A stretch of 64,000 nucleotides of DNA from Halarcobacter sp. (GTDB taxonomy: Bacteria > Campylobacterota > Campylobacteria > Campylobacterales > Arcobacteraceae): assembly GCA_030145305.1 (NCBI GenBank), contig JAQYVX010000011.1, forward strand, positions 62,001 through 126,000, read 5' to 3'. The notes beneath the pieces were generated by a model that worked only from the letters and a program-made list of their open reading frames with translations, did no database searches and was not told the DNA's origin. Position numbers and translations under genes: made by a program. Positions 11,001 through 41,494 of this stretch are shown here, in pieces; position 1 is the first letter of the stretch; each line of letters starts with the position of its first letter.

Positions 11001-11996
<996 letters not shown>

Positions 11997-13127: not shown

Positions 13128-13173
13128 AAAAGATAATTTAATTATTAAAAGAAGAAAAAAATAGGAGAAAATA

Positions 13174-14774: not shown

Positions 14775-14792
14775 AAAAACAAGGATTATTGG

Positions 14793-15344: not shown

Positions 15345-15357
15345 AATTGGAGTTATA

Positions 15358-16380
15358 ATGAAAATAGGAAAACATGATTTAGAAAAAGATGGTACATACA
15401 TAATAGCTGAGCTAAGTGCTAATCATAACGGAAGTTTACAAAATGCATTAGATGCAATAAAAGCTGCAAGAGATATCGGTGCAAATGCAATAAAACTTCA
15501 AACTTATACAGCTGACACTATGACTCTTGATTCTAAAAAAAATGATTTTCTAATTACTCAAGGTACGTTATGGGATGGAAAATATTTGTATGAGTTATAT
15601 AAAGAAGCCTATACTCCATGGAAATGGCATGAAGAACTATTTTCTTATGCACGAAGTCTAGATATAGATATATTTTCAACACCTTTTGATAAAAGTGCAG
15701 TTGATTTTTTAGAGCAGTTTAATCCAAGTGCTTATAAAATAGCATCATTTGAAATTACAGATTATGAATTAGTAAGATACACAGCCTCAAAACAAAAACC
15801 TATAATAATCTCAACCGGAATTGCAAAAATTGATGAAATTTTGGATGTTATAAATATATGTAAAAGTGTTGGAAATGAAAATATTATACTTTTAAAGTGT
15901 ACAAGTAGTTATCCGTCACCTTTAGATGAGGCTAATTTGATTATGATTCCAAATTTAAAAGAAACTTTTGGAGTTGAAGTTGGATTCTCAGATCATACTT
16001 TGGGGAATACGGCACCTATAATTGCTGTAACCTTAGGTGCAAAAGTTATAGAAAAACATTTTATTTTAGATAAAAAGATTGGTGGCCCTGATTCTGAATT
16101 TTCTTTAGATAAAAAAGAGTTTAAACAGATGATAACATCAGTTCGAGATACGGAAAAACTTCTAGGGAAAACTGATTATATATTAACAAATAAAAAAATA
16201 AAAAGTAGAGAACATAGTCGAAGTTTATATATTTGTAAAGATATCGAAAAAGGTGAACTATTTAGTGAAGAAAATATAAAAAGTGTAAGGCCTGGATATG
16301 GAAAGCATCCTAAATATAAAAATGATATAATAGGAACAAAAGCTTCAAAAAAATATTTTTTTGGAGATAGAGTTATATAA
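15358..16380 (+). CDS. pseI: Pseudaminic acid synthase PseI
   Basis: PseI condenses 6-deoxy-AltdiNAc with phosphoenolpyruvate to pseudaminic acid. The 340-residue NeuB-family protein has YIIAELSANHNGS (about residues 15-27), a metal-binding SDHT near residue 211 and the EKHF motif. A C-terminal SAF/antifreeze-like domain (about 280-340) contains RSLYICKDIEKGE. The ATG at 15358 has GGAG upstream and gives the family N terminus; a start 33 nt earlier lies inside pseH without a ribosome site. With it, all six CMP-Pse steps are present in this locus. Confidence 0.93.
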   Translation: MKIGKHDLEKDGTYIIAELSANHNGSLQNALDAIKAARDIGANAIKLQTYTADTMTLDSKKNDFLITQGTLWDGKYLYELYKEAYTPWKWHEELFSYARSLDIDIFSTPFDKSAVDFLEQFNPSAYKIASFEITDYELVRYTASKQKPIIISTGIAKIDEILDVINICKSVGNENIILLKCTSSYPSPLDEANLIMIPNLKETFGVEVGFSDHTLGNTAPIIAVTLGAKVIEKHFILDKKIGGPDSEFSLDKKEFKQMITSVRDTEKLLGKTDYILTNKKIKSREHSRSLYICKDIEKGELFSEENIKSVRPGYGKHPKYKNDIIGTKASKKYFFGDRVI

Positions 16381-16391
16381 TAAGGATTAAA

Positions 16392-16682
16392 ATGCAAGTT
16401 AAAATAGAACAAATAATTATTAAAACATTAGTAGAATTAAATGAAGAATTAGAAGATGAATCTTTATTTAATCCAAATTCAAAAACAAAACTTTATGGTA
16501 CAAGTAATGGAATAGATTCTTTATCTTTAGTATCTTTTATCACAGACCTAGAAGAAAAAATTTCAGATGAATTTAATAAAGAAATAGTTTTAGCAGATGA
16601 AAAAGCAATGAGTGCAAAAACATCACCTTTTAGAAATGTAGAGACATTAACTTTATATATAAAAACTTTATTGGAAGAATAA
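16392..16682 (+). CDS. Acyl carrier protein-like
   Basis: A 96-residue acidic protein with the phosphopantetheine attachment motif GIDSLSL, serine 43, inside a four-helix ACP pattern. It would carry an acyl group as a thioester. It is not the housekeeping AcpP: that has DSLD-type spacing and sits near fab genes. Here it overlaps an SDR gene by 1 nt, followed by an AMP-forming acyl ligase. The triad probably prepares an acyl substituent for a sugar made in this locus; the acyl identity is unknown. Confidence 0.8.
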   Translation: MQVKIEQIIIKTLVELNEELEDESLFNPNSKTKLYGTSNGIDSLSLVSFITDLEEKISDEFNKEIVLADEKAMSAKTSPFRNVETLTLYIKTLLEE

Positions 16683-17383
16683 TGAAACAAATCATTGTTA
16701 TAACAGGAACATCAAAAGGAATAGGACAAGCTTTAGCAAACTACTATTTAAATAAAAATAATATAGTAATAGGTTGTTCCAGAAATAAAAGTACAATAAA
16801 TAATGAAAATTACAGGCATTTCTCTTTAGAAGTAAGTGATGAAAAAGCAGTTGTAATTATGGTAAGAGCTGTTAAAAAAGAATTTAAAACAATCGATGTA
16901 TTAATAAATAATGCAGGAATTGCCTCAATGAATCATTTTTTAACAACTTCAACTTCAAGTGTAGAAAAAATATTTTCAACAAATTTCTTAGGAACCTTTA
17001 TCTTTACTCGAGAAGTTAGTAAAGTAATGATGAAACAAAAATATGGAAGAGTAGTAAACTATACAACAGTTGCAAGGGCTCTAAGACTTGAAGGGGAAGC
17101 TATTTATTCAGCTAGTAAAGCAGCTATAGAGAATTTAACTCAAACAATTGCGAAAGAATTAGCTCCTTTTAATATAACAGTAAATGCAATAGGACCAACT
17201 CCTGTAAAAACAGATTTGATAAAAGCAGTACCAAAAAATAAAATTGATGAACTTTTAACTAAGCAAGCAATAAAAAGACTAGGAACTTTCGAAGATATAA
17301 TAAATGTAATCGAATTCTTTATTGATAAAAAAAGTGACTTTATTACAGGACAGATTGTATATCTTGGAGGAGTGAATAATTAA
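16682..17383 (+). CDS. Short-chain dehydrogenase/reductase, FabG-like
   Basis: This 233-residue SDR has the cofactor loop TGTSKGIGQ (residues 8-16), NNAG (about 77-80) and the YSASK active site (about 139-143), with FITGQIVYLGG at the C terminus. The pattern is close to 3-oxoacyl-ACP reductases. The usual catalytic serine position reads as part of VNYTTVARA, with Thr instead of the common Ser. Its neighbours are an ACP and an acyl-AMP ligase, each overlapping by 1 nt, so reduction of an ACP-bound beta-keto acyl group is a reasonable inference. Confidence 0.8.
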   Translation: MKQIIVITGTSKGIGQALANYYLNKNNIVIGCSRNKSTINNENYRHFSLEVSDEKAVVIMVRAVKKEFKTIDVLINNAGIASMNHFLTTSTSSVEKIFSTNFLGTFIFTREVSKVMMKQKYGRVVNYTTVARALRLEGEAIYSASKAAIENLTQTIAKELAPFNITVNAIGPTPVKTDLIKAVPKNKIDELLTKQAIKRLGTFEDIINVIEFFIDKKSDFITGQIVYLGGVNN

Positions 17384-18726
17384 TGAGCTATTTATTTGAA
17401 AAATTTGTTCAATTTAATATAAAAAATGCAATCATTAGTGAAGAACAAACTTACTCTTATTCTCAACTTTTAGAGCAAATAGATATATATAATGGAATTC
17501 TAGAAGAAAATGTAAAAACTTCAGAAGTATGTGCGATTTTAGGAGATTATTCTTTTTATGGTATAGCTTTATTTTTTGCCTTATATAAAAATAAAAATAT
17601 CATAATACCAATAACGACAAAAGTAAAAAATGTACAAAATGAATATATAGAAGAATCTTTTTGTCAATATGTAATAAAACCCAAAAAAAACGAACTTATA
17701 ATTGAATCTTTAAAAAATAATAAATCTCACAAAATGATAGAAAAATTAAAAGAAAATCAAAACTCAGGATTGATACTATTCTCAAGTGGAAGTACAGGAA
17801 AACCAAAGGCAATGATTCATAATCTTGAAAATCTAATAAACGCATACAAAGATAAAAAATCAAAAGTTATGAATATTCTAGTCTTTTTAATGTTTGATCA
17901 TATTGGAGGATTAAATACTCTATTTAATGCATTGTCAATGGGAGCTTGCTTAATTGTTCCTAAAACTAGAGATTCAAAAACTATATGTAAACTTATAGAA
18001 GATTATAAGATTAGGGTTCTCCCCTCTAGTCCTACATTTCTAAATCTAATTTTGATTTCAAGAGAATATGAAAGATATGATTTAAGTTCTTTACGAATGA
18101 TTAGTTATGGAACAGAAATGATGCCTGAATCTCTTTTGCTAAAATTAAAGAATACCTTTCCAAGAATAAAATTTTTGCAAACATTTGGTACAAGTGAAAC
18201 AGGAATTAGTAGTACTAGTTCGAAGGCATCTGATTCTTTATATATGAAGATAGAAGATTCAAACCAAGAATATAAAATAGTAGAAAATGAACTTTGGATT
18301 AGAAGTAAAACCCAAGTTCTAGGATATTTAAATGCTTCAATGAATTCTTTTACAAGTGACGGATGGTTTAAAACAGGTGATTTAGTTGAAGAATTTGAAA
18401 ACGGATATTTAAAAGTCATTGGAAGAAGTAAAGAAGTTATAAATGTAGGTGGAGAGAAAGTATTACCTGTTGAGGTTGAATCAGTGATTTTGTCTATGTT
18501 CGAGATCGATGATTGTATGGTTTATAGTGAAAAAAATACAATCACTGGACAAACTGTAGTTTGTGATGTTGTTTTAAATATAAAAACTGAGAATATAAAA
18601 AAAACAATTCGTTTATTTTGTAAAGAAAAACTTGAAAAATTTAAGATACCTACAAAAGTGAATATCGTTGAGAAAACTAATTTTACTGATAGATTTAAAA
18701 AGATAAGAAGAAAAGTAAAATGTTAG
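17383..18726 (+). CDS. AMP-forming acyl-CoA/ACP ligase family protein
   Basis: A 447-residue ANL-superfamily adenylating enzyme. It shows the P-loop LFSSGSTGKPKAM (about 130-142), the TFGTSETG motif (about 268-275), DGWFKTGDLVE and the hinge GRSKEVINVGGEKV. The length is short for the family; the N-terminal region is compact. It probably activates a carboxylic acid and loads the adjacent ACP. It overlaps the SDR and the following GT2 gene (7 nt). The substrate cannot be predicted here. Confidence 0.82.
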   Translation: MSYLFEKFVQFNIKNAIISEEQTYSYSQLLEQIDIYNGILEENVKTSEVCAILGDYSFYGIALFFALYKNKNIIIPITTKVKNVQNEYIEESFCQYVIKPKKNELIIESLKNNKSHKMIEKLKENQNSGLILFSSGSTGKPKAMIHNLENLINAYKDKKSKVMNILVFLMFDHIGGLNTLFNALSMGACLIVPKTRDSKTICKLIEDYKIRVLPSSPTFLNLILISREYERYDLSSLRMISYGTEMMPESLLLKLKNTFPRIKFLQTFGTSETGISSTSSKASDSLYMKIEDSNQEYKIVENELWIRSKTQVLGYLNASMNSFTSDGWFKTGDLVEEFENGYLKVIGRSKEVINVGGEKVLPVEVESVILSMFEIDDCMVYSEKNTITGQTVVCDVVLNIKTENIKKTIRLFCKEKLEKFKIPTKVNIVEKTNFTDRFKKIRRKVKC

Positions 18727-29398: not shown

Positions 29399-31876
29399 AT
29401 GAATACTACTGAAATAAAATTATCAATATTGATACCAACATATAATAGAGAAAAATTCATAATAGAAGCTATTGATTCTGTACTAAATCAAGATTTTCAA
29501 GATTTCGAAATAATATGTTCAGATAATGCTAGTACTGATAATACATACAAAATACTCCTTGATTATGCAAAAAAAGATAATAGAATTAAAGTATTCCAAA
29601 GTGTTGAAAATTTGGGACCTATTCCTAATTGGGAAATTTGTTTATCTCATGCAAATGGCGAATTTATTCATTGGCTATGGAGTGATGATTGGATAGAAAC
29701 TAACTTTTATATAGATGCTTTTGCATTAATGAAAAAAAATCATACAAGAATTGTTTCAACATGGAATTATCGTTCAGACAATTTAGATGATAGAAATGAT
29801 AAATATATTAGTTGGCAATTTTCGCACTCTTTAGTCCCTGGAAATGTTGCAGCAAAGAAAATATTGTTTATGACTTATGAGTTACCTGTTTCTCCTGCTG
29901 CTTATATTTTACCTATAAAGTCTGTTAGAAAACATTTTTATAAAAATATAGTTAAATTAAATGATTCTTTAGACCCTGTAAATAAAGCAGTAGGAGTTGA
30001 TTCCTTGATGATTATAGGTTCATGTATGGAAGAAGAAAAAATATCTATATTACAAAAGCCTTCAGTTGTATTTAGAAAACATGATAACATTTCCTTTCAA
30101 TTATCTAAAGATGGGAGTTTATTTAAAATGTATTTATTGTCTCATTTTTGGTTTGCATCGAGAGAAAATATTCAAATTAATATTTTTGAATTTTTTTCTA
30201 TATTAAAAAAAGTATTTTTTTATTTCCCAAAAGATATATATAAGAAAAAGATTATAAATATTTTGATAAAACTATTGCTTAAGAGTAAGATTACGAAGAA
30301 TAAAGAAGATTTGTCAAATAAATATAAATCTAAAAAAGCATTTATGAGAAAAAATGTTATTCTAGAATTAGATGAAACACTTAACAACCTAGATATCGAA
30401 AATAAAAAAATATATATAACTCCCTTTAATGATGTAACAAGTCAGCTACGGATTAAACTTGAATTATTGTCATCTAAAAAAGTTATTTTTATAGATAATT
30501 ATAAAAAAGGAGAAAATATTATTTCTCCAGAATTTGTCATTGATTATGATTATATTTTTATATATAGTCCAAATTATCAGATTGAAATTGCAAAAAGATT
30601 ACCAAAAAAAAACTTATATTGTTTTTATCAATTACCAAATACTCTTTATAGTGTAACCTTGTTTTCAAAAGTTTATATTTTCAAACAAAAGTTAAAAATG
30701 TTCTTTGATTATAAAAAACATAAAAAGAAGATAGTAAATAAAATTGAAAAATTAGACATGTTTTCAATAGGTAGTCAAATAATATATCTATCAAACCAAA
30801 TCAAAAACTACTCTTTCAAGGACAAAAAAATATATATAACGCCAGTTAATGACACAACTGTAGACATTTTAAATGAGTTAGAAAAATACCATAACAATAG
30901 TATCGAACTTATTGAAAATGAATTTGAAAAAATTGAAAAAGATAGTTATCTTTTAATTTATGATTCAGAAGATAAAAAACAGATAATAAGAAATCTATCA
31001 ACAAAAAACATATACTTAATTTACCATATTCCTAAAAAAGGGATTAAAATTATAAAATATACATTTTTAAATTTATTTTATAAAAGGTTTTCTAATATAT
31101 CTTTGTTAATATATCTAAATATAATTTATAAGATAAGATTATATTTTGCAAATACTATAAATATACCTATTCATAAGAATGAAAAAGAAATATTAAAATT
31201 AAAAAATATACATAAAAACCAGAGAGCTTTTATTATAGGAAATGGACCAAGTTTAAAAATAAGTGATTTAGATAGATTAGAAAATGAAATAACTTTTGCG
31301 GCCAATAAAATATATTTGTCCTTCAATGAAACAAAATGGCGACCAACATATTACTCTGTTGAAGACAATTTAGTAATGAAGGAGATTTATAAAAAAGTAA
31401 AAAGCTTAACTGAAACAAAAATAATATTGCCAATTAAAGATATAAAAGAATATAACTATATAAAAAGTGCCCTTTATTATCCTTTAATCAAAAATAGGAG
31501 TGCTCTTCCCGGATTTTCAGATAATATTTTAAAAGAAGTTTTTCCTGGTAATACTGTAACTTATTCAATGTTACAAATGGCTATTTATATGGGTATAAAA
31601 GAAGTTTATTTTATTGGAATAGATTTTAGTTATGAGTTACCTAAAATAAAAAATCAAGAAACAAATATAATTTGCAATGATCAAGAAATAAATCATTTTC
31701 ATAAAGATTATAGAAGACCTGGAGATAAGTGGATTAAACCAAATGAATCTGGACAAATAAAAGCATATGAAAGTGCATTAGTTTTTTGCAATAAAAATAA
31801 TATTAAAATATATAATGCATCAAGAAAAACTAAACTTCAAGTATTCGAAAGAATTGATTTTGATAAATTATTTTAG
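29399..31876 (+). CDS. GT2-DUF115 fusion with two internal YITPxND modules
   Basis: An 825-residue multidomain protein. Residues 8-230 or so form a GT2 domain (SILIPTYNREKFIIEAID, CSDNASTDN, LWSDDWIE). Two copies of an alpha/beta module follow, at about 335-415 (KIYITPFNDVTS, IYSPNYQIEIAKRL) and 474-555 (KIYITPVNDTTV). The C terminus (about 605-825) is DUF115: FIIGNGPSLKISDL, FAANKIYLSF, GNTVTYSML, YFIGIDFSYE, NHFHKDYRRPGDKW. The last domain is closely similar to the 342-residue protein at 22186. It probably joins sugar transfer with Maf-like acceptor or donor handling. It is the last + strand gene and overlaps the convergent gene by 4 nt. Confidence 0.78.
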   Translation: MNTTEIKLSILIPTYNREKFIIEAIDSVLNQDFQDFEIICSDNASTDNTYKILLDYAKKDNRIKVFQSVENLGPIPNWEICLSHANGEFIHWLWSDDWIETNFYIDAFALMKKNHTRIVSTWNYRSDNLDDRNDKYISWQFSHSLVPGNVAAKKILFMTYELPVSPAAYILPIKSVRKHFYKNIVKLNDSLDPVNKAVGVDSLMIIGSCMEEEKISILQKPSVVFRKHDNISFQLSKDGSLFKMYLLSHFWFASRENIQINIFEFFSILKKVFFYFPKDIYKKKIINILIKLLLKSKITKNKEDLSNKYKSKKAFMRKNVILELDETLNNLDIENKKIYITPFNDVTSQLRIKLELLSSKKVIFIDNYKKGENIISPEFVIDYDYIFIYSPNYQIEIAKRLPKKNLYCFYQLPNTLYSVTLFSKVYIFKQKLKMFFDYKKHKKKIVNKIEKLDMFSIGSQIIYLSNQIKNYSFKDKKIYITPVNDTTVDILNELEKYHNNSIELIENEFEKIEKDSYLLIYDSEDKKQIIRNLSTKNIYLIYHIPKKGIKIIKYTFLNLFYKRFSNISLLIYLNIIYKIRLYFANTINIPIHKNEKEILKLKNIHKNQRAFIIGNGPSLKISDLDRLENEITFAANKIYLSFNETKWRPTYYSVEDNLVMKEIYKKVKSLTETKIILPIKDIKEYNYIKSALYYPLIKNRSALPGFSDNILKEVFPGNTVTYSMLQMAIYMGIKEVYFIGIDFSYELPKIKNQETNIICNDQEINHFHKDYRRPGDKWIKPNESGQIKAYESALVFCNKNNIKIYNASRKTKLQVFERIDFDKLF

Positions 31877-32553
31877 GAAATAGACAAAAGTTTTTCTGCA
31901 AAAAGGAAATCTTTTTCTTCACTTATTTTTATTGCATGCATCGAATCAATATCAAAAAACAATCTATTGATTCCTAAAGATGCAAAGCCTTTTCCCTGCA
32001 TCCTGTCTTTAAAGGCTTTTGCATCCCATATTGTAATAGCCCAATTTAAGATACTAATTTTACTATTCTTTTGACTTGGGGCCAACTGCTCATTTATATT
32101 AATATTTACAGGTATGTTATTACAAAAAGTTTGCATTTGTGTCGATTCCGTTGTAATTAACGTATCGCAATTGCTATTTTTAAAAGCTTCAAATGCTTTT
32201 TTGATATCATCAGTTGTAATTAAAGGACAAACAGGATTTATCATAATTAAAGTATCGGCAGAAAGATTTAATATGATATCTAAATTAAATTCATCGCTAC
32301 TAGCAGTGTCATTTGCTAAATAATTAGCTCTTTTATAGGTATTAAACTCAGGATAATTTTTTCTTATAAATTCAATCATTTCTTCAGAGTCTGTATTTAT
32401 ATACATATCCGCAGGAATCTCTGCTTTTATAGTAGATTCAATTGTATAACTTATCATTGGTTTTCCATTCATTAATCTCATATTTTTTCTTGGGACTCGT
32501 TTACTTCCTTCTCTTGCAGGTATATGTAATACTATTTTTCCTAATTCTCTCAT
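31873..32553 (-). CDS. CMP-sugar (acylneuraminate-type) cytidylyltransferase family protein
   Basis: The 226-residue protein starts KIVLHIPAREGSKRVPRKNMRLMNGKPM, the CTP-binding signature of NeuA/KdsB/PseF-like enzymes, with a variant E in PAREGSK where PseF has PARGGSK. A metal-binding aspartate sits in FFDIDS near the C terminus. It is distinct from PseF at 13174. As the last gene of the - strand operon, it should activate the sugar acid made by the upstream genes. That product is not known. Confidence 0.8.
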   Translation of the reverse strand: MRELGKIVLHIPAREGSKRVPRKNMRLMNGKPMISYTIESTIKAEIPADMYINTDSEEMIEFIRKNYPEFNTYKRANYLANDTASSDEFNLDIILNLSADTLIMINPVCPLITTDDIKKAFEAFKNSNCDTLITTESTQMQTFCNNIPVNININEQLAPSQKNSKISILNWAITIWDAKAFKDRMQGKGFASLGINRLFFDIDSMHAIKISEEKDFLFAEKLLSIS

Positions 32554-32556
32554 TAT

Positions 32557-33621
32557 TTATGTCCTATCATTATAATATTCTTGGAAATAGTTCTGAAATA
32601 ATTTTTCTGATTTATCATCTATTGGTAAAGATGTTATCTCTACTTCTCCAAAAGAAATAGGTATAATCAAGTTATAATTTTGATTATCATTCTTTTTATC
32701 TCTTTTTAATGCAGTAATAAAATCATCAAATTCAAATGAAATATAATCTTTTTCTTTTAAATTTGAAATAATAAAATTATGAAGTAAATTAAATTCAGAA
32801 GAAGATAATTTATTAAGTTTTAATGCTAAATAATTAGCCATATCTATTCCTACAGTAACAGCTATTCCATGAGATATAGCAAAATTAGTAGAAGCCTCTA
32901 GTGCATGTCCAAAAGAATGACCATAATTCATTTTTAGTCTTAATCCTTGATCTAATGGATCTATCTCAAGAATCTTATTTTTTAACTTTAATGAATTAAA
33001 AATAATTTCAGACATAATATCTTTGTTGTGTTTATAATTTTCTAATTTACTAATAATATATTCTATAGATTTCTTACCTGATAATAAATGTACTTTTATT
33101 ATTTCTCCAATACCTGAACGAATGTCATCTTCTTTTAAAGTTTTTAGAAAATCAGATTGAATAATAATTTGAGAAGGTGGATAAAAGTTTCCAATAATAT
33201 TTTTCCATGATTTATAATTAAGGGAACTTTTCCCTCCTATACAGCTATCCGCTTGTGCCAAAAGTGTTGTAGGTAACCAAATCCATTTAATCCCTCTATA
33301 TAAAATACTTGTACTAAATGTTACTAAATCTTGAGTAATTCCTCCTCCTAGAGCAATGATTTTATCTTTTCTTTTTACTCCTTTTAGCATTAGTTGTTCA
33401 CAAAGTTTCAGAGCAAACTCTGGAGTCTTTTTATATTCTTTAGCATCAATAAAAATAAGCGTGCTAATATTAAAATTATAAGTCATCTTATATAGCTCAT
33501 AAACATTCTCATCAATTACTACCGCTTTTGTCTCTTTTAAAAGTTCATTGATATATATTTTATTGATATTAATGTGTAATTCATATGTTTCTTTATCAGA
33601 AAAAATATCTATTCTATTCAA
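32557..33621 (-). CDS. 3-dehydroquinate synthase family protein (AroB paralogue)
   Basis: A 354-residue sugar-phosphate cyclase-family protein. The NAD-binding ALGGGITQDLVTF, the PTTLLAQADSCIGGKSSLN segment with KNIIGNFYPP, GEIIKVH and GLRLKMNYGHSFGHALEA retain the Arg, Asn, Glu, Lys and two His positions of DHQ synthase. The context is not shikimate but surface sugars, so it likely acts on a related deoxy-ulosonate phosphate or makes a cyclitol. I chose the TTG at 33621 because GGAGGA lies seven bases upstream; ATGs at 33639 and 33636 have no ribosome site. It overlaps the SDR gene by 8 nt. Confidence 0.8.
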   Translation of the reverse strand: MNRIDIFSDKETYELHININKIYINELLKETKAVVIDENVYELYKMTYNFNISTLIFIDAKEYKKTPEFALKLCEQLMLKGVKRKDKIIALGGGITQDLVTFSTSILYRGIKWIWLPTTLLAQADSCIGGKSSLNYKSWKNIIGNFYPPSQIIIQSDFLKTLKEDDIRSGIGEIIKVHLLSGKKSIEYIISKLENYKHNKDIMSEIIFNSLKLKNKILEIDPLDQGLRLKMNYGHSFGHALEASTNFAISHGIAVTVGIDMANYLALKLNKLSSSEFNLLHNFIISNLKEKDYISFEFDDFITALKRDKKNDNQNYNLIIPISFGEVEITSLPIDDKSEKLFQNYFQEYYNDRT

Positions 33622-34345
33622 GAGTAAATCCTCCATCAATAATAATATTTTGACCAGTAATATAGTTATTGTAATTTGAAGTCAAAAATAAAATACTTGG
33701 TACTATATCAGAAACTTTTGCAAGTTTTTTAAGAGGAATTTTTGATTTCATCTTTTTCATACCTTTTTCTCCTAAAATATTTCTTGTTAGTTTTGTATTT
33801 ACAAAACCAGGGGATATGCAATTAACCATAATATTAAATTTGGCCAGATCAACAGCAATAGTCTTTGTAACACCAATTAATCCAGATTTACTCGCAGTGT
33901 AAGGATTCCTCCCTTCTTTTGTTACGACACCAAATATTGAACCAATATTTATAATATGGCCAAATCTTTGATCAATCATTTTCTTAGATACTTCCTTTGA
34001 TATATAAATTGGGGCATTTAAATTTGTAAGTAAAATATCATTTATATCAGAATATTTGGTTTTATTTATTTTATTTATTTTATTTATTCCTGCATTATTG
34101 ATACAAATATCAAAACCATCATATTTATCAATTATTTCAATAATTCTACTTTGCCAATTAGTAGTATCTTTAATTAATAATTGTTCATATTTTATATTAG
34201 AATTCATATTGATAGGTTTTTCTTTAGAGGTTCCTGTTACTATTACACTTGCTTTTAGTTTTGAGTACTCTTGTGCAATAGCTTTCCCAATACCTCTAGT
34301 CCCACCAGTAATAAGTATTTTCTTATTTTTAAAATTAATCTTCAT
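33614..34345 (-). CDS. Short-chain dehydrogenase/reductase
   Basis: A 243-residue classical SDR with TGGTRGIGKAIA (about 13-24), NNAGINKINKINKTK, the catalytic serine in INIGSIFG, and YTASK (about 151-155). NYITGQNIIIDGG closes the C terminus as in FabG-like enzymes. It lies in the - strand sugar operon between a YhcH-type gene (11 nt overlap) and the DHQ-synthase-like gene (8 nt overlap), so it likely oxidises or reduces a pathway intermediate. The substrate is unknown. Confidence 0.82.
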   Translation of the reverse strand: MKINFKNKKILITGGTRGIGKAIAQEYSKLKASVIVTGTSKEKPINMNSNIKYEQLLIKDTTNWQSRIIEIIDKYDGFDICINNAGINKINKINKTKYSDINDILLTNLNAPIYISKEVSKKMIDQRFGHIINIGSIFGVVTKEGRNPYTASKSGLIGVTKTIAVDLAKFNIMVNCISPGFVNTKLTRNILGEKGMKKMKSKIPLKKLAKVSDIVPSILFLTSNYNNYITGQNIIIDGGFTLE

Positions 34346-34844
34346 TTAAATAAAACTCCATTGGAAATTTTACTACAGTTTTGTAGACTACTTCAACTTC
34401 ATTATATTTAGGGCAACCAATATGTCCATCATCAGGAAAAAATATAGCTAGATCTTTTTCTTGTAGTAAAAACTTTGATGTGTTATCTACTAACTTATAA
34501 GTAATTAGATCTTTTTGTTTATTATAATATCTTTTGGTCTCCAGTTTATTTATATCAATATATTCCATTTGTTCATTTCCTGAAATAACTAATTGAAAGT
34601 CAATATACTTTTTATGAGATTCTATAAAACATTCTTCTCTATTTTTTGTATAAAAAACTTGTTCTAAAGCATATATATCCTTTGTAAGTATAACTTTTTC
34701 AAAGGAACCTATAGGAAGAGACTTTATTCTATTATGTATTTTGCTACTATTATTCAATGCTTCTTGAAAATATTCAATTATTATTTCAAGTTTTTTTCTT
34801 TTTAAAAAAGGTTTTAAATTATTAAAATTGCTAATTATTGCCAT
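34335..34844 (-). CDS. YhcH/YjgK/YiaL family protein (sugar anomerase-like)
   Basis: A 169-residue cupin-fold protein of the DUF386 type. Family features visible are ECFIESHKKYIDFQLVISG (metal-binding His and Glu positions), FFPDDGHIGCP with the second histidine set, and VVYKTVVKFP. E. coli YhcH (NanQ) is an N-acetylneuraminate anomerase, so a role in equilibrating anomers of a keto-sugar acid would suit a pathway that ends in a CMP-sugar transferase. This is inference from family and context. Confidence 0.8.
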   Translation of the reverse strand: MAIISNFNNLKPFLKRKKLEIIIEYFQEALNNSSKIHNRIKSLPIGSFEKVILTKDIYALEQVFYTKNREECFIESHKKYIDFQLVISGNEQMEYIDINKLETKRYYNKQKDLITYKLVDNTSKFLLQEKDLAIFFPDDGHIGCPKYNEVEVVYKTVVKFPMEFYLNED

Positions 34845-34850
34845 GACTTA

Positions 34851-35789
34851 TTACCTTTGTTTATAATAATTCAAAATATTATCAATAGACACGATTCCCA
34901 TAATTTCTACAGCTTCAGCTGAGTTTCCTCCAATATGAGGAGTGGTAATAAGATTTGGAATTTCAATTAATTCTTTATCATCAGGAGGTTCAATCTCATA
35001 AGCATCTATCGCTGCACCTGCAATAATATTATTTTTTAATGCCCATTTTAAATCAGACTGTTTTATAAGACCGCCTCTAGCCGTGTTAATGATAATTGCA
35101 TTTGGTTTCATTAAAGATAAAGTATTTTTATCTATAAAATATTTTAAATCACTTGTTAATGGCGTGTGAATAGATATTATATCTGCTTCTTTAAAGATTT
35201 CTTCTTTTGATTTCTTTAATAAATTGTTTTTCGAGTAATATAAATCTTGATTTATTATGTCATTAACTAATATATTGCAGTTAAATGGTTGTAATAATGT
35301 AATAAGATCTTTGCCTATATTTCCCACACCTATTATTCCTATTGTTTTAGAACTTAATTGTGTTCCACCATTCTTATTCCAAATACCATTTTTTAAGTTA
35401 TTTGATGTGGTATAAACATTTCTTAGAAGCATAAGAATAAAAGCTAAAGATAATTCTGATACAGATCTTTTATTGATGCCTTGAGTATGGAGTATTTTAA
35501 CATTACGTTTATTACATTCTTCAACGTCAATATTATCTAATCCTACTCCATATTTAGATATTACTTTCAAGTTTGGAACTTTTCTTAAAACTTCATTGGT
35601 AATCTTGTCAAGACCTATTATTGCTATATCACATTTATTTAAGAATATAATAAGTTCATCTTCAGTAAATCTTTTTTGAGCCTCATTAATATATACATTC
35701 TTAAAACCTAAATCTTTTAATTTGTTGATTAATGTAAGATTTTTAGAAAATGCAACAGTAGTTACTCCTATATTTAAATTATTTATCAC
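34851..35789 (-). CDS. D-2-hydroxyacid dehydrogenase (phosphoglycerate dehydrogenase-like)
   Basis: The 312-residue protein has the D-isomer-specific 2-hydroxyacid dehydrogenase layout. VISKYGVGLDNIDVE lies in the substrate domain, and the NAD loop GIIGVGNIGKDLITLL is at about 150-165. NTARGGLI holds the catalytic arginine, with a Glu in EIEPP and the HIGGNSAEA histidine. No ACT domain follows, so it is short of SerA. I chose GTG at 35789, where CAGGA sits eight bases upstream, over the ATG at 35810. It overlaps the Gfo gene by 11 nt. Confidence 0.8.
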   Translation of the reverse strand: MINNLNIGVTTVAFSKNLTLINKLKDLGFKNVYINEAQKRFTEDELIIFLNKCDIAIIGLDKITNEVLRKVPNLKVISKYGVGLDNIDVEECNKRNVKILHTQGINKRSVSELSLAFILMLLRNVYTTSNNLKNGIWNKNGGTQLSSKTIGIIGVGNIGKDLITLLQPFNCNILVNDIINQDLYYSKNNLLKKSKEEIFKEADIISIHTPLTSDLKYFIDKNTLSLMKPNAIIINTARGGLIKQSDLKWALKNNIIAGAAIDAYEIEPPDDKELIEIPNLITTPHIGGNSAEAVEIMGIVSIDNILNYYKQR

Positions 35790-36789
35790 TATAAAATCCT
35801 GAGTTTTCATAAATTTTTTCTACAAGCTTAAGTGTTTCAAAAGCATCTTTACTAGTTCCATTTTTAATTATATTTTTCCCTAAAATTGCATCAACAAACT
35901 CATCAACTTCAAGTTTCCATGAATCATCATTTTCAAACCAAGTAGTAGATTCTTTTGGTTTTCCCATAGCATGAGTAATATCTTCAAACTTTCTTCTTCC
36001 TACGATTAATTGTTCAGGAGCATAGCTCCTTGTTCCTGATAGTATTCCATCAAGATTTATATAACCCTCTTCAAAGCACATTTCTAATAGAAATTTATGA
36101 TGCCATTGGGTTGCACTTGAGTGTAGCATTGCTGTAATTTTTTCTTCAGATTGCATTATAATAAATGCATTATCCTCTGCTTCTATAGGCCAAAAAGAAG
36201 TAGTTATAAAACTATTAATTTTACTAAAATTTTGATTAGAAAAGTATCTCATTAAATCAAGCATATGAATCCCTTGATCTATTAATATTCCTCCTCCTGA
36301 ATATTCTTTATAATTTCTCCAATTTTTGTCATAATCAATACTTCCTGCTTTCCCATAGACACCTCTAATCCACAAAAGTTTGCCCATACTTCCTGAATCA
36401 ATTATTTTTTTTGCTTCTATAACGGAGTAATGATATCTATGATTAAAACCATATTTTAATATTAAGCTACTATTCTGTTCTATTTTTATAACTTGTTTTA
36501 ATTCTTCACTTGTTCGAGCAGGAGGTTTTTCACAAAAAACATGTATCCCTGATTCTAATGCTTTTACTGTATATTCAGCTAAAACATTATTAAAAGTGCA
36601 TATAAATATTGCATCAATATCTTGTTTTAAAAGTTCATCGTATGATTCACAAAATTTTATATTTTTAGATAACTTGTCAGGTTTAATTAAATCATAGATA
36701 GCGATTAGTTCTGTTTTTTCATTTCTTTTTATCTCTTCTGCTCGAACTTGTCCTATTTTTCCATATCCTGCGATTGCAATTTTAATCAT
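35779..36789 (-). CDS. Gfo/Idh/MocA family oxidoreductase
   Basis: The 336-residue protein begins MIKIAIAGYGKIGQVRAEEI, a Rossmann NAD(P) loop, followed by the family EKPPARTSEELK segment with the catalytic lysine (about residue 92). GGGILIDQGIHMLDLMRYF with the conserved histidine region follows. These enzymes oxidise sugar hydroxyls, often on nucleotide sugars. The ATG at 36789 has GGAAG six bases upstream and overlaps the SIS stop by 8 nt; a longer frame to 36837 lies inside the SIS gene. Confidence 0.85.
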   Translation of the reverse strand: MIKIAIAGYGKIGQVRAEEIKRNEKTELIAIYDLIKPDKLSKNIKFCESYDELLKQDIDAIFICTFNNVLAEYTVKALESGIHVFCEKPPARTSEELKQVIKIEQNSSLILKYGFNHRYHYSVIEAKKIIDSGSMGKLLWIRGVYGKAGSIDYDKNWRNYKEYSGGGILIDQGIHMLDLMRYFSNQNFSKINSFITTSFWPIEAEDNAFIIMQSEEKITAMLHSSATQWHHKFLLEMCFEEGYINLDGILSGTRSYAPEQLIVGRRKFEDITHAMGKPKESTTWFENDDSWKLEVDEFVDAILGKNIIKNGTSKDAFETLKLVEKIYENSGFYSDK

Positions 36790-37384
36790 GTTCTTCCACA
36801 GTGTAATTATATTTTGTTTTTGGTTTTTGTGATACATAATATGAGTATAAAATATGATCTAAAATCATATGTACATCTTCTACCAAACCATATTCTCCTT
36901 TTGGAGTTTCAACATGAAAATTTATATCAGATAATTCTTTTAGTTTGCCCCCACTAAAACCAGTAATGCCTACAATAGTAGTTCCTACTTCTTTTGCATA
37001 AGTAGTAGCTTTTACAATGTTTATAGAGTTTCCGCTACATGAAATCGCGATTAGTAAGTCTTCTTTTTTAATTTTATGTTTTAATTGTGCATAAAATATA
37101 TTTTCATATCCTATATCATTTGCAATAGCTGTACATACAGAAGAATTATCACTTAAACTCTCGACATCGAGATTTTTTATTTCTCTAATTTTTAATCCTA
37201 TGGAGAGGTCATTTGCCATATGTGAAGCAGTTGCTGCACTACCACCATTTCCTATAATGTAAATCTTTGAATTAAGTTCCTCTGTTTTATTAATTGCATT
37301 TTTAATATTTTCAATAACTGATATATCTAAACTTAAAAGTATTTTTCTTAAATTTTCAATGTATAGTTCTACAAATTCTTTCAT
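36782..37384 (-). CDS. SIS-domain sugar isomerase, GmhA/DiaA-like
   Basis: A 200-residue single SIS domain: IYIIGNGGSAATASHMANDLSIG (about 37-59), SCSGNSINIVKAT with the phosphosugar-binding loop, and a C-terminal VEDVHMILDHILYSYY helix typical of sedoheptulose-7-phosphate isomerases and DiaA. It is the first gene of the six-step - strand operon after a TATAAT box. If it is GmhA-like it would supply a D-glycero-heptose phosphate; the actual substrate is unproven. Confidence 0.82.
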   Translation of the reverse strand: MKEFVELYIENLRKILLSLDISVIENIKNAINKTEELNSKIYIIGNGGSAATASHMANDLSIGLKIREIKNLDVESLSDNSSVCTAIANDIGYENIFYAQLKHKIKKEDLLIAISCSGNSINIVKATTYAKEVGTTIVGITGFSGGKLKELSDINFHVETPKGEYGLVEDVHMILDHILYSYYVSQKPKTKYNYTVEEHD

Positions 37385-37451: not shown

Positions 37452-38528
37452 TTATTCTTTATTAAATAACTTCCACTTATTGATAAATTCTTTAAATTTT
37501 TTTGATTTAATAAAGCAATTTATCATTTTAATTAATATGTACACCATGGATGTATTGAAGTTAAAATCATCAAAATTTATAAATCTAGATAATGTAAGTT
37601 GTGTTATGCTTTTTTTTGCTTTAATTATTTCCATTTCTGAGTATCCAAATTCTTTATAAGTAGTAAAAATTTTATGATTTTTATATAATAAATCATATTG
37701 GTTCAGAGGTAAAAAATATCTGTCTGTAAGATTAATACAATGTATCTCTACACAATTTATATTAATAAAATTAATAACTTTATTAAGAGGAAATGCTGAG
37801 GTAATCGTTGTTCTATTTTGTTGAATATATATTTCTGAATTTTGAATAATATCCATAATATTAGAGATTTTAATATAATTGATATCTATATTACTATTGA
37901 AAATTTCAATAGGAAAATCATTATTGAAAGAAAAACAATTAATTTTAATGTTAGGTAATTCCTTTGAAACTAAATAAATAAAATCTATAAATTTTTTATC
38001 TGTTAAATTTTCTTGAATTCCTAAAAATCCTACACTATTTGGACAATAAATATTTTTGACTATTTCTTTATTAATTGGTAAATGTAAACTATGCATAAAA
38101 CTTGCTTCATTAAATTTTGAATCATTTTTATTTAATAATATGCAAGGGGAATTATTCAGATTCTCTTGTGTCTTATGATTTTTAAAACTAATTTGGTTTT
38201 CTCCTCCTATAAATTCTGAAGGTAAATCATAAGTAAATGCAAAACCTTTTAGATCATAAATATCTTCAACTTTCTTATTCTCTTTGTTTGCTGTGATTGT
38301 ATCAATTAATTCTTCATCTAATAAAACATCTACTTCTTGAATTTCATCACTATCAATTTTTTTACAAAAACCTTCAAATGAAAAATAATTTTTTGTATGA
38401 ACTACTCCATATGTTTTTTGATTAGATTTTGGTACGATCATTAATAGCCTACTTTTTAATTTAACTCTATCATATAGATTATTAAATTCTTTTAAAAAAT
38501 TATAAAAGAATGCTTTAGCTATAATCAT
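37452..38528 (-). CDS. Unknown protein, possible glycosyltransferase, next to Maf
   Basis: About 358 residues with no motif I can name. The N-terminal half includes SFEGFCKKIDSDEIQEVDVLL and GGENQISFKNHKTQ and looks beta-rich. The second half alternates strands and helices (SVGFLGIQENLTDKKFIDFIY, SEIYIQQNRTTITSAFPL), reminiscent of the C-terminal half of GT-B transferases. The start is unsure: ATG at 38528 is used here, but ATG at 38441 has a better AGG ribosome site and a TATAAT on the - strand upstream. A TTG at 38579 would extend into the maf gene on the other strand. Context suggests flagellin or surface glycan modification. Confidence 0.6.
   Translation of the reverse strand: MIIAKAFFYNFLKEFNNLYDRVKLKSRLLMIVPKSNQKTYGVVHTKNYFSFEGFCKKIDSDEIQEVDVLLDEELIDTITANKENKKVEDIYDLKGFAFTYDLPSEFIGGENQISFKNHKTQENLNNSPCILLNKNDSKFNEASFMHSLHLPINKEIVKNIYCPNSVGFLGIQENLTDKKFIDFIYLVSKELPNIKINCFSFNNDFPIEIFNSNIDINYIKISNIMDIIQNSEIYIQQNRTTITSAFPLNKVINFININCVEIHCINLTDRYFLPLNQYDLLYKNHKIFTTYKEFGYSEMEIIKAKKSITQLTLSRFINFDDFNFNTSMVYILIKMINCFIKSKKFKEFINKWKLFNKE
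38520..38525 (+). promoter_or_regulatory. -10 box for maf
   Basis: TATAAT 48 nt before the maf ATG, with an expected transcript start near 38532. If the divergent unknown gene starts at 38528 this box overlaps its first codons. Confidence 0.45.
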
Positions 38529-38572
38529 TAACTTAAATATAAATATTAAAAAAATAGTTATTAGGATAATTA

Positions 38573-40603
38573 ATGGCAAAAAGTGAAAAACAATTACAAG
38601 AAGAGTTAGTAAATAGATATCTAAAAAACTTAGATTTTTTTAGAATTTATGACTTAGAATTATTTAATAAAATTGAAACTTTATCAACTGCCATAAATGA
38701 AGGTCTCTATCAAGAAAAACATGCTTTAGAATTTATAAAAGAAATTAAAGACTTTGATATATTAAATTTGGAAAATAATAGTTATTTATATAATAAAAAT
38801 ATGAAGAAAGTAAATCATAACTTGCAAAAGGAGATTACTTTTGACAAAAAAGCTATTTTTAGTACTTTAAATAAAGGAATTTATGATGAGTACATAAAAA
38901 ACTACGATTTACCAAATACAAAATTTGACTTATTAGATAATTATTTATTAGAAGATATGTCTGAATATAGAGCTATTTTTTCAGAAATCAAAGAGGGTAA
39001 TTATAAATTCATTGATAAAATTATTTTTCTTGGTACGGCTTTAGGAGGACACTTAAATAGCATTAAAAAAAACACTAATGCAAAACTTTGTTTTATATAT
39101 GAACCCAATCTAGAAATATTTAGATTGTCTCTTTTTACAACAGATTATTCTACTCTGTCAAGTAATACAAAATTTATTTTTTCAATAATGGATTACAATA
39201 ATATATTTATTAACAAATTAAATCAATTTATTTCTTCTTATGCACAATTTTCTAATTATAATATTAAATATTCAAAAATGAATTATATTACTGATGATGT
39301 GATTCATAATATAATTTCTCAATTGCATATTTCTAATTCAAACTTATATGATTATACAAAAGTTCTTTATCAGAATATTTATACAATATCTAAGCATTTA
39401 GGTAGATATAAAATTTTGTGTACAAAAAATAAAAAAAATGATTTCTCTTTAACAAAAGGTAAGCCCGTGATCTTTGTTGGAGCAGGTCCTTCTTTAATGA
39501 AAAATATTGAGTGGTTAAAAGAAAATCAAGATTCTTTTTGTATTGTGTCAATGGGGGCTACATATAAAAAACTTTTTGAAAATGATATAAGAGTTGATAT
39601 TGTAAGCACGGTAGATCCACAATATGAAGTATTAAATAATACACATTTTAATAAAGAAGATGTAATCTTGTTAAAAGATACTATTGTTTTAGCTTCAATT
39701 TGCACTCCCATAAAGATTTTGAATAAATTTAATCAAAAAAAATTATTTTTATTTGAAACTTATCAGTCTTTTAAAGATTCTTCTAATTGCTATAATGGAG
39801 CAAGTATCGGTGAAGTAACCTTATCTATTTTACTAGATTTAGGAATTGGAAATATCTATTTATTTGGAATAGATTTAGCATTAGATTCAAATACAGGCTC
39901 AACGCACTATGAGGGATATCAAAATCAAGAGAAAGGATTATCTGATAAAGCCAAGGTAAATAGTATTTTAAGTGGTCAGAAACAAGATTTAAGAGATGAG
40001 TATTTAGAAGTAAAGGGTAATAAGAATAAAAAAGTTATTACAACTAGAGTTTTTGCTTTATCAATTAATATGTATAACCAATTAATCTCACAATTTAAAC
40101 AAAATAAACAAAAAATATATAATCTATCTAGTGAAGGGGCATATATTGAAGGTACAGAGTTTATTGAAATTGATAATATAAATTTGGAAAAAGAAGAGAT
40201 TAAACTTATATCTGAAGATATAGTTAAAGAACTTACAACAATAAGTGAAAAAGATTTAACAATAAGTGAAAAAGAAAAACTTAATAAAAAAATACTATTC
40301 ACAGATAATTTGGAACTTCATCTTTTTGATTGTTCAAAAAAAATAACTTCTAAGAATCTTAGGGAGTTTAATGAAAATATAGATTTAGTTATTGTTAAAG
40401 TACTTGAATCAAAGGATTATACCTTTACAAATATAATTGCAAATTATCTTAATCTTTCTTTACCTTTTATTTACTCAAATTTAAATAATAATAAAATTAG
40501 TAAAAAAGATGAAAGAAATAAAATAAAAGAAGTAGAGAAAGTTTTATATAAACATCTTATGCGTATTATTGAAATATATAATTATTATTTAAAGCAGATA
40601 TAA
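38573..40603 (+). CDS. Motility accessory factor (Maf) flagellin glycosyltransferase
   Basis: The 676-residue protein has the three-part Maf layout. The N-terminal domain (to about 280) includes IIFLGTALGGHL and FIYEPNLEIFRLSLF. The central DUF115 domain (about 296-460) holds VIFVGAGPSLMKNIEWL, STVDPQYEV, NGASIGEVTLSILLDLG and LFGIDLAL. A helical C terminus follows. Maf proteins (PseD/PseE types) transfer nonulosonic acids such as pseudaminic acid from CMP-Pse to Ser/Thr of flagellin in the cytoplasm. The flagellin gene lies convergent, 48 nt away, and the CMP-Pse genes are 22 kb upstream. Which sugar it transfers is inference. Confidence 0.88.
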   Translation: MAKSEKQLQEELVNRYLKNLDFFRIYDLELFNKIETLSTAINEGLYQEKHALEFIKEIKDFDILNLENNSYLYNKNMKKVNHNLQKEITFDKKAIFSTLNKGIYDEYIKNYDLPNTKFDLLDNYLLEDMSEYRAIFSEIKEGNYKFIDKIIFLGTALGGHLNSIKKNTNAKLCFIYEPNLEIFRLSLFTTDYSTLSSNTKFIFSIMDYNNIFINKLNQFISSYAQFSNYNIKYSKMNYITDDVIHNIISQLHISNSNLYDYTKVLYQNIYTISKHLGRYKILCTKNKKNDFSLTKGKPVIFVGAGPSLMKNIEWLKENQDSFCIVSMGATYKKLFENDIRVDIVSTVDPQYEVLNNTHFNKEDVILLKDTIVLASICTPIKILNKFNQKKLFLFETYQSFKDSSNCYNGASIGEVTLSILLDLGIGNIYLFGIDLALDSNTGSTHYEGYQNQEKGLSDKAKVNSILSGQKQDLRDEYLEVKGNKNKKVITTRVFALSINMYNQLISQFKQNKQKIYNLSSEGAYIEGTEFIEIDNINLEKEEIKLISEDIVKELTTISEKDLTISEKEKLNKKILFTDNLELHLFDCSKKITSKNLREFNENIDLVIVKVLESKDYTFTNIIANYLNLSLPFIYSNLNNNKISKKDERNKIKEVEKVLYKHLMRIIEIYNYYLKQI

Positions 40604-40651: not shown

Positions 40652-41494
40652 TTATTGTAATAATCTTAAAACATTTTGTTGAACAGAATTCGCTTGACTG
40701 ATTGCATAAGAACCAGCTTGAGAAATAATGTTCTGTTTATTGAAGTTTGCAGATTCTGCTGCATAATCAACATCTCTAATAATAGATTCAGCCGCTTTTA
40801 CATTTGTTGCCTGAGTCATTAAGTTTCTAACAGCAGATTCAACTTGGTTTTGAGTAGAACCGATGTCACCTCTATACCCATTAAGAGTATTAATTGCAGT
40901 ATCAACATTCCCCATTTGAGTTTCTGCATCACCTTTAGAAATAGTTGTGATGCCATTTAATGCTGTTAATCCTAACCCTGTTGAGTTTGCAGTAATCGCA
41001 CCTAATGAAATAGTCCCACCATTTGCAAAATCTTCACCAACTTGGAAGTCTAATGCAGATGAAGCAGCAACACCATCAGTACCAGAAATTAATTGAGTAC
41101 CATTATAGTTAGTAGATTTACCAATATTATCTAATTGAGTCATTAGTTTTGAAATATCTTTTGCAATTGAAGTTCTACCTTCACCTGAAGTAGTATCAGT
41201 ATTAGCTTGAATTAATTTAGCTTTAATAGTATCAAGAATATTTGATTGCTCAGCCATTGATTTATCAGCAATTTGAAGTAATGTTACAGCTGAATTACCA
41301 TTTGCAACACCTTGATCAATTGAAGTTGCTTGAGTTCTTAATTTATCTGCAATTGCAAGACCAGAAGCATCATCAGAAGCTTTATTAATTTTAAGACCAG
41401 TAGAAAGTTTTTCTAAGGCACTTGAAATGCTTTTACCTGTATTTGTAGCTGCTTCTTGAGCAGTAATTGAAGAGACGTTTGTGTTAATAATCAT
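40652..41494 (-). CDS. Flagellin, short type
   Basis: A 280-residue flagellin. The N-terminal D0/D1 region (INTNVSSITAQEAATNTGK, LEKLSTGLKINKASDDASG) and the C-terminal D1/D0 region (VRNLMTQATNVKAAESIIRD, QANSVQQNVLRLL) are intact. The middle variable region is very small (about 130-210), so the outer D2/D3 domains are missing, as in other Arcobacter-type flagellins. Ser/Thr residues in the central part (for example TTISKGD) are plausible glycosylation sites for the adjacent Maf. A strong AAAAGGA ribosome site lies upstream. Gene name (flaA or flaB) not assignable. Confidence 0.95.
   Translation of the reverse strand: MIINTNVSSITAQEAATNTGKSISSALEKLSTGLKINKASDDASGLAIADKLRTQATSIDQGVANGNSAVTLLQIADKSMAEQSNILDTIKAKLIQANTDTTSGEGRTSIAKDISKLMTQLDNIGKSTNYNGTQLISGTDGVAASSALDFQVGEDFANGGTISLGAITANSTGLGLTALNGITTISKGDAETQMGNVDTAINTLNGYRGDIGSTQNQVESAVRNLMTQATNVKAAESIIRDVDYAAESANFNKQNIISQAGSYAISQANSVQQNVLRLLQ

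Follow-up and report, generated by a model that had tools for sequence, protein, structure and literature searches.

Cytidine monophosphate (CMP)-linked nonulosonates such as pseudaminic, legionaminic and sialic acids are the products of NeuB-dependent pathways, and C7 cyclitols are the products of pathways with an EEVS (valiolone) type of sugar-phosphate cyclase from the AroB superfamily. Here we describe a seven-gene operon that shares parts with both. It lies on the minus strand at 31873-37384 of a 64,000-nucleotide stretch of the Halarcobacter sp. assembly GCA_030145305.1 (contig JAQYVX010000011.1, positions 62,001 to 126,000), the whole of which we refer to as the window. Like the NeuB-dependent pathways, the operon ends in a NeuA/PseF-type synthetase and has flagellin and Maf-type genes as neighbours, but it is without a NeuB/PseI-type synthase, a UDP-sugar dehydratase or an aminotransferase. 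Like the C7-cyclitol pathways, it combines an AroB-superfamily cyclase with oxidoreductases, but its cyclase has the active-site residues of AroB; to our knowledge, C7-cyclitol pathways use no CMP-type synthetase, D-2-hydroxyacid dehydrogenase (2-HADH) or YhcH protein.

The best model for the operon cyclase is NCBIfam TIGR04425 (AroB-related putative sugar phosphate phospholyase, cyclizing). We recovered 34 loci with an AroB-like relative from an 84,980-species collection by a peptide-pattern scan, which used two patterns only and is not exhaustive, and 29 of these also carry a short-chain dehydrogenase/reductase (SDR) gene. In contrast to the operon, 20 of the 34 sit with a thiamine diphosphate (ThDP) enzyme, and none of the 20 has a Gfo/Idh/MocA oxidoreductase (MocA) of at least 150 bits, a SIS-domain isomerase (SIS) or a 2-HADH. 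The SIS of the operon is by sequence a relative of GmhA from the ADP-heptose route, but differs from it in score and at three catalytic places. Among the literature that we found, the nearest orphan cluster with such a cyclase is the ebo operon of bacteria and eustigmatophyte plastids, in which EboD is likewise an AroB-like sugar-phosphate cyclase (PMC5133447). In the portion of that paper on which we draw, the partners differ from those in our operon (a UbiA-type prenyltransferase, a xylose-isomerase-like protein, a metallo-dependent hydrolase, a phosphate-substrate hydrolase and a novel family), and no CMP synthetase is named (PMC5133447).

The operon operates as though the last part of a nonulosonate pathway had been coupled to a sugar-phosphate cyclase, and by the tests given below it belongs to neither kind of pathway. 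Our verdict is that it is a real, conserved and mobile variant of CMP-sugar biosynthesis, which points to a CMP-sugar that none of the pathways we came across accounts for, made without a NeuB- or aldolase-type gene in the operon; the pathway has spread between phyla and onto phage contigs. An earlier reading of this DNA from its letters alone (the original prediction) knew of no single pathway that uses this set, and our literature searches likewise turned up no description of it; the cyclase family already has a name in NCBIfam (putative phospholyase), while the pathway is undescribed as far as those searches reach.

Operon layout and conservation of the gene set

Pfam and NCBIfam profile searches found all seven predicted open reading frames on the minus strand with the families that had been claimed for them, and each protein passed the Pfam cut-off of its own family. 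The last gene had been called a CMP-sugar transferase and is instead a CMP-sugar synthetase (cytidylyltransferase, PF02348). Beginning with the first in the run, the genes are:

36782-37384, minus strand: SIS-domain sugar-phosphate isomerase, a distant GmhA paralogue of 200 amino acids (PF13580, 65.3 bits)
35779-36837, minus strand: Gfo/Idh/MocA oxidoreductase of 352 amino acids (PF01408/PF22725)
34851-35810, minus strand: D-2-hydroxyacid dehydrogenase, phosphoglycerate dehydrogenase-like (PF02826, 171.9 bits)
34335-34844, minus strand: YhcH/YjgK/YiaL (DUF386) protein, proposed anomerase, accessory (TIGR00022, 64.6 bits, cut-off 45.5)
33614-34345, minus strand: SDR ketoreductase, constant partner of the AroB-like gene (PF13561, 161 bits)
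32557-33639, minus strand: AroB/3-dehydroquinate synthase (DHQS) paralogue, TIGR04425 kin (378.7 bits, cut-off 400)
31873-32553, minus strand: CMP-sugar synthetase, PseF/NeuA-like cytidylyltransferase (PF02348, 61.4 bits)

Adjacent genes overlap or stand 3-6 bases apart, as the tight packing described originally would have it. The true start of MocA is probably 36789 rather than 36837, because its homologues start near residue 17, and its overlap with SIS would therefore be about 8 bases. The "-10 box" that had been placed in front of the operon (TATAAT at 37438) gives no evidence of a promoter, since it is one of nine TATAAT motifs on the same strand in 5.7 kb and the region has no surplus of promoter-like matches (42, against a mean of 50.1 and a standard deviation of 7.1 in shuffled sequences); we rejected the promoter argument on these grounds. 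The G+C content of the operon (26.4%) is close to that of the window (27.2%), and composition therefore shows no sign of recent import.

The search for the same gene order elsewhere that the original prediction had proposed was productive: another genome of the genus (Arcobacter sp. BM102; locus L010) has all seven genes in an identical order, with 63-79% identity, so the order is not a matter of chance. A third genome of the genus (L014) carries SIS, MocA, SDR, AroB-like and 2-HADH genes and a synthetase-cupin fusion. A methyltransferase-type gene is interspersed among them, a class-III aminotransferase gene follows, and a flagellin gene is 5.5 kb away. With the host included in each count, the AroB-like family was found in five of 397 genomes of a phylum sample and MocA in three (both at E <= 1e-90), and the AroB-like protein in three of the 16 genomes of the genus (E <= 1e-60).

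Among the 34 AroB-like loci, eight have a MocA that scores at least 150 bits (strong), and all eight have SIS or 2-HADH as well, as against none of the other 26 (Fisher p 5.5e-8), while a ThDP enzyme occurs in 20 of the 26 and in none of the eight. Counted with the 26 is L033, whose contig starts inside MocA (82 bits). Loci were found partly through the DHQS paralogue and partly through MocA, which biases the shares of the former, and a fairer count comes from the 16 loci besides the window that were found through MocA only: 2-HADH is present in 15, SIS in 14 (within 10 kb of MocA) and an AroB-like gene in seven, with that of L074 cut by the end of the stretch just beyond 10 kb from MocA. This sample includes the best seven of 20 viral loci; the other 13 (L079-L091), which match only part of MocA at 23-34% identity, enter none of the counts.

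The combined set comprises 25 loci, with L015, which is the L010 contig, entered once and with the near-copies L068/L071 and the similar L072/L075 both kept. Here 2-HADH is found near MocA in 22, SIS in 21 and an AroB-like gene in 15 (16 with L074), and every one of the 15 AroB-like-bearing loci has an SDR gene. L017 and L033, which are among the loci without SIS, start inside MocA. A cytidylyltransferase-family gene, KdsB type included, is present in 22 of the 25, a count that takes in L016 (just beyond 10 kb), the incomplete L039 and a phage protein of L072 just under the Pfam cut-off; none was seen in the stretches of L068, L071 and L073, the last of which ends inside SIS. Accessory genes were sought by BLAST with references from the same loci, a search that diverged copies may escape.

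A six-gene core (SIS, MocA, 2-HADH, SDR, AroB-like protein and CMP-sugar synthetase, the last sometimes of KdsB type) recurs across phyla and on viral contigs. The MocA kind of locus occurs in Campylobacterota, Hydrogenovibrio, Alteromonas (beside a flagellin gene), Denitrovibrio and Omnitrophota, and in Pelagibacteraceae without 2-HADH. In the family of G100, MocA was found in one of 153 genomes, namely G100; in the class of L039 it was found in one of 308, the centre genome; and in the class of L031 it was found in none of 311, a negative that carries little weight. The AroB-like protein had no match in plasmids at E 1e-45, and the region 34851-37384 had no DNA match in E. coli genomes.

It is general knowledge that each of these families is common when taken alone, and the run could in principle be a chance assembly of independent housekeeping-type genes in which the cyclase is the shikimate AroB. 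This is scarcely credible, and we rejected it: a separate AroB passes its own cut-off, the order is repeated in a second genome, MocA is associated with SIS or 2-HADH, and the genes occur together across phyla. The seven genes form one conserved, mobile pathway. As to their unity, the original prediction stands in that the genes are co-conserved and lie in glycan and flagellin loci, but the real core is six genes and YhcH is accessory to it.

Families and folds of the encoded enzymes

The operon cyclase did not pass the AroB equivalog model (260.8 bits, cut-off 305), and a separate true AroB is encoded on another contig (373 bits with the same model); the shikimate AroB identity was therefore rejected. 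TIGR04425 is the best model, yet the score is below its cut-off (378.7 vs 400), a value that the MocA-type loci straddle (L041 and L043 lie above it at 401.3 and 424.3, and the cyclases of G292 and of the genome of L039 lie below it at 387.4 and 353.9). The residues D104, K137, N141, E179, K182, K220, R234, N238, H241, H245 and H257 are the same as in the two AroB rows aligned, and presumably have the active-site roles of those in the A. nidulans enzyme; the H-G motif is followed by I rather than E. This set is kept in every full-length AroB-like row, with the exception of K182 -> H in L039 (two of four AroB sequences were entered in the table, L057 and L058 being left out, and the L042 row is partial), and also in the phage proteins of L076-L078. 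One kept pair, which we take to bind the substrate carboxylate in AroB, fits a carboxylate-bearing substrate, in which case the cyclase would act after 2-HADH. The predicted structure (mean pLDDT 91.3) has the fold of the sugar-phosphate cyclase superfamily, with Z scores of 39.4 to 5hvn (DHQS), 38.3 to 2gru (DOIS) and 36.5 to 4p53 (EEVS); the ranges for the three classes (33.4-39.4, 37.0-38.3 and 36.5) are near-equal, and the fold therefore does not choose a substrate. Fourteen residues of ValA have been given as a fingerprint of EEVS, the C7-cyclitol synthase, in the part of the source used here (PMC4426668).

SIS did not pass the GmhA model TIGR00441 (106 bits, cut-off 209). At the places aligned with GmhA D61, E68 and Q175, which we assume to be catalytic and so numbered, it has T, D and E, and its sugar therefore need not be a heptose; the GmhA heptose route as such was rejected for the low score and these replacements. 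The likeness to C7-cyclitol routes that had been suggested originally retains its sugar-phosphate-cyclase flavour, but is weakened by the AroB-type residues of the cyclase and by the changes at the GmhA-type places. Of the 13 cluster homologues of MocA, six share 57-79% identity with it and seven share 38-45%, and its top NCBIfam model is inositol 2-dehydrogenase (124 bits, cut-off 355). 2-HADH is closest to phosphoglycerate dehydrogenases. YhcH passed the wider TIGR00022 but not the NanQ model NF040884 (62.7 bits, cut-off 160), and its nearest solved relative is HP1029 (4tsd).

The synthetase did not pass the PseF model TIGR03584 (77.9 bits, cut-off 205.7); it matches PF02348 and has the NeuA-like fold of CMP-sialate synthetases (NeuA/KdsB superfamily). 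Its predicted structure (mean pLDDT 85.3, two loops under 50) gave a Z score of 23.7 to both 1eyr and 9t4z, which makes CMP-sialate and CMP-Kdn synthetases the nearest class, and lower values to KdsB (1h7e, 19.2), a GlmU (18.8) and the CDP-forming TarI and IspD (about 18). Because these are the nearest structures, the model supports a 2-ulosonic-type hydroxy acid as the likely substrate. The ulosonic-acid flavour noted from the sequence is borne out by this fold together with YhcH.

The pseudaminic acid genes PseB, PseC, PseF, PseG and PseI are present elsewhere in the window (11004-16380), with PseF proper at 13174-13884 (331 bits with TIGR03584). A sixth gene of that locus (14793-15344) is in the place expected of PseH and had no NCBIfam match at 1e-30. 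Genome-wide, NeuB had a single match, which is PseI (15325-16380), and no NeuB-type synthase was found to be left for the operon in this assembly (99.99% complete by estimate, perhaps incomplete). The operon therefore needs another way to make its acid, and a plain NeuB-type nonulosonate route was rejected. Four cytidylyltransferase-family matches were found in the genome. Since the true AroB is elsewhere and the Pse genes are separate, the operon is neither a shikimate step nor the pseudaminic acid pathway.

A proposed route through a 2-ulosonate phosphate

We tentatively propose that the operon encodes one pathway to a CMP-activated compound of the 2-ulosonic acid type that is used on flagellin, a reading that we consider quite possible but short of probable. 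The direct observations behind it are the co-conservation of the genes, their families, the replacement of modules by one another and flagellin genes within 6 kb in three loci. SIS would convert a ketose phosphate to an aldose phosphate, which MocA would oxidise at C1 to a lactone phosphate; the lactone would open spontaneously, or through a lactonase-type enzyme in some loci, to an aldonate phosphate, and 2-HADH would oxidise C2 of the latter to give a 2-ulosonate phosphate, made without phosphoenolpyruvate or pyruvate. PdxB oxidises erythronate-4-phosphate likewise at C2. The AroB-like enzyme would then eliminate phosphate, most likely with ring closure as in dehydroquinate synthesis, and SDR would reduce the resulting ketone. 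YhcH, or a cupin elsewhere, would prepare the right form of the product, and the NeuA-like synthetase would couple the acid to CMP for use by a Maf-type transferase. If true, this would be a second biosynthetic logic for ulosonic acids and would suggest a testable class of substrates for TIGR04425, an orphan family of AroB paralogues; with six enzymes and a mass-spectrometry readout on flagellin, the pathway is open to test.

The 2-ulosonate phosphate may be a hub with three outcomes: dephosphorylation and CMP activation (L052-L054), retro-aldol cleavage (L068/L071), or AroB-like and SDR chemistry before CMP activation, as in the operon of the window. L052, L053 and L054 do not have the SDR and AroB-like pair in the run, and have an inositol-monophosphatase-family (IMPase) gene there; such a gene is found in three of the nine loci without an AroB-like gene, in L016, which does carry an AroB-like gene, the one IMPase-like match is weak (66 bits) and lies on the other strand. 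L068 and L071 have MocA, 2-HADH, 6-phosphogluconolactonase (pgl), HpcH/HpaI aldolase and SIS genes together, with no synthetase found in the stretch; such a hub would predict this linkage. Separability in other genomes, which the original prediction had named as a point that would tell against it, therefore holds for some of the genes: for the SDR and AroB-like pair in L052-L054, and for SIS, MocA and 2-HADH without a CMP synthetase in the fetched stretches of L068 and L071.

Other modules vary as well. YhcH is present in the window, L010, L052 and L054 (weakly in the last, at 49 bits), L014, L026, L041, L043, L070, L074 and L078 have a cupin that forms a fusion with the synthetase or lies close to it, and the two are never together in one of the 25 loci; YhcH is an accessory that is replaced elsewhere by the cupin. 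Lactonase-type genes of two unrelated families occur in five of the 25: pgl in L016 (TIGR01198 passed), L068 (PF01182) and L071 (by similarity), and the PF04199 hydrolase family in L046 and L052. As a separate observation, the gammaproteobacterial run of L068:9240-13389 and L071 has the look of a catabolic pathway with a 2-ulosonate phosphate as an intermediate. L041:5683-6780 and L070:5597-6688 encode similar-looking proteins of 363-365 amino acids next to SIS, with a P-loop-like motif seen by eye; that of L041 has no Pfam match. These proteins might be pathway kinases.

The product of the AroB-like enzyme may take either of two forms. With ring closure, the product would be a CMP-activated carbocyclic acid, a hydroxylated quinate-like C7 cyclitol carboxylate for flagellin, and phages would use the same pathway for glycans of their own. 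We regard this specific form as unlikely but not far-fetched; if true, a carbocycle would act as a CMP-linked glycosyl-type donor. Alternatively, the enzyme could remove phosphate without forming a carbocycle and the SDR could reduce a methyl ketone, to give a CMP-activated, terminally deoxygenated ulosonic acid of the 7-deoxy-heptulosonate type with its anomeric centre kept. A YhcH or cupin gene near the synthetase with or without an AroB-like gene, the use of the same kind of synthetase in the IMPase-family loci and the resemblance of the synthetase to NeuA all speak for this rather unlikely variant, but the window protein keeps all the listed AroB active-site residues, all characterised AroB-like homologues known to us cyclise, and ring closure of the enolpyranose in DHQ synthesis is reported to be spontaneous. 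In our judgement, chemistry slightly favours the carbocycle and gene content slightly favours the deoxy sugar.

The genes might also serve two products that enter the same glycan, with SIS, the AroB-like enzyme and SDR (perhaps with MocA as an IolG relative) making a C7 cyclitol from sedoheptulose-7-phosphate, and 2-HADH, YhcH and the synthetase making a separate CMP-sugar. The inositol 2-dehydrogenase model of MocA, although below cut-off, would suit this division, and several known sugar-phosphate cyclases use sedoheptulose-7-phosphate, according to the part of the source drawn on (PMC5133447). We find it improbable in view of the loci in which the SDR and AroB-like pair stands mid-run, between MocA and 2-HADH or the synthetase (L014, L017, L026 and L043), and of those in which MocA and 2-HADH were found without a cyclase (L052-L054, L068, L071-L073 and L075).

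Quite improbable, too, is an aldolase-type route to a CMP-ulosonate, in which a pyruvate or hydroxypyruvate aldolase encoded elsewhere would build the acid and 2-HADH, instead of acting on a long aldonate, would supply or recycle hydroxypyruvate. The HpcH and KdsB genes in L016, L046 and L069, the company of HpcH with MocA, 2-HADH, pgl and SIS in L068/L071 and the closeness of 2-HADH to phosphoglycerate dehydrogenases are consistent with such a route, but it leaves MocA and the lactonases without an obvious job, and a search that covered the loci only found no HpcH-type aldolase close to the operon in the window, L010, L014, L026 or L043.

Several points weigh against our proposal of a single pathway through a 2-ulosonate phosphate. 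The reactions of all the enzymes are inferred, and a ring-closed product without an anomeric centre fits badly with YhcH or a cupin and with CMP transfer. The scheme leaves unexplained L016, L046 and L069, which hold an HpcH aldolase and a KdsB-type synthetase with the PseF-like one missing. Nor does it explain L072 and L075, which have SIS, MocA, 2-HADH and a cytidylyltransferase-family gene, and where neither an IMPase nor an AroB-like gene was found in the stretch. Two loci (L069 and L076) gave no SIS near MocA, and two others (L039 and L070) gave no 2-HADH there. The class-III aminotransferase added in L014 and L074 suggests that products differ between loci. The kept carboxylate-binding residues are no proof: by tree, confirmed EVS enzymes would pass for DHQS, in the part of the source considered (PMC5133447). 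The cyclase model matches DHQS, DOIS and EEVS about equally. Furthermore, the AroB-like proteins of MocA-type loci are not one clade in our tree, and there may have been more than one event in which the SDR and AroB-like pair was added to the core. The MocA kind needs four label changes on that tree (shuffled mean 12.2), which is compatible with a single origin.

Neighbouring genes, viral contigs and a second cassette

Three genes upstream of the operon are relevant to its possible use:

37452-38579, minus strand: conserved companion gene with no assigned family, 67 bases upstream of SIS
38573-40603, plus strand: Maf/PseD-like flagellin glycosyltransferase candidate (PF01973, 107 bits; PF20157, 43.6 bits)
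40652-41494, minus strand: flagellin gene, likely glycosylation target (PF00669/PF00700)

Flagellin is a likely target of the operon product, because flagellin genes are found within 6 kb of the cluster in three loci (the window, L014 and L043). The Maf/PseD-like candidate reaches only 47 bits with the PseD model (cut-off 670). The companion gene had no Pfam or NCBIfam match at E 0.001; L010, L014 and L026 have homologues at most about 6 kb from the cluster (the L026 copy is cut by the contig end), and it is possibly the first gene of the operon. Also encoded in the window are a UDP-galactopyranose mutase and RfbF, RfbG and RfbH of a cytidine diphosphate (CDP)-dideoxyhexose set. The glycan region begins with an SDR gene followed by an acyl-CoA-ligase-like gene (16682-18726), which neither the Pse nor the CDP-sugar set explains.

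MocA and 2-HADH are present in all seven uncultured viral contigs (L072-L078), SIS in six and an AroB-like gene in four (L074, L076, L077 and L078). Phage clamp-loader genes lie in the same stretch in L072, L075 and L078, and clamp genes in L072 and L078 (PHROG 168 and 223); we take these three contigs as T4-like. L076 has a phage helicase-family gene (238 bits) and L073 and L074 have weak phage-family matches only, and the viral label of L073, L074, L076 and L077 rests mainly on the source collection. In phage records, MocA had no match at E 1e-40, and the AroB-like search returned 14 records with 29-33% identity, of which ten are unannotated and four carry the annotation 3-dehydroquinate synthase or aroB.

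A second orphan cassette is organised round TIGR04425, with a ThDP enzyme, an SDR, an AroB-like protein and, in 15 of 20, an HpcH-like protein. It accounts for 20 of the 34 AroB-like loci (L018-L020, L022-L025, L027-L032, L034-L038, L040 and L042), and it is also seen in L011 (6617-10953). Its hosts are Bacteroidota, Microcystis, Ruminococcus, Lachnospiraceae and a spirochaete. Genes that look like RfbF, RfbG and RfbH stand beside the cassette in L011 and, by eye, also in L012 and L013, and our guess is that its product is a branched or bicyclic sugar.

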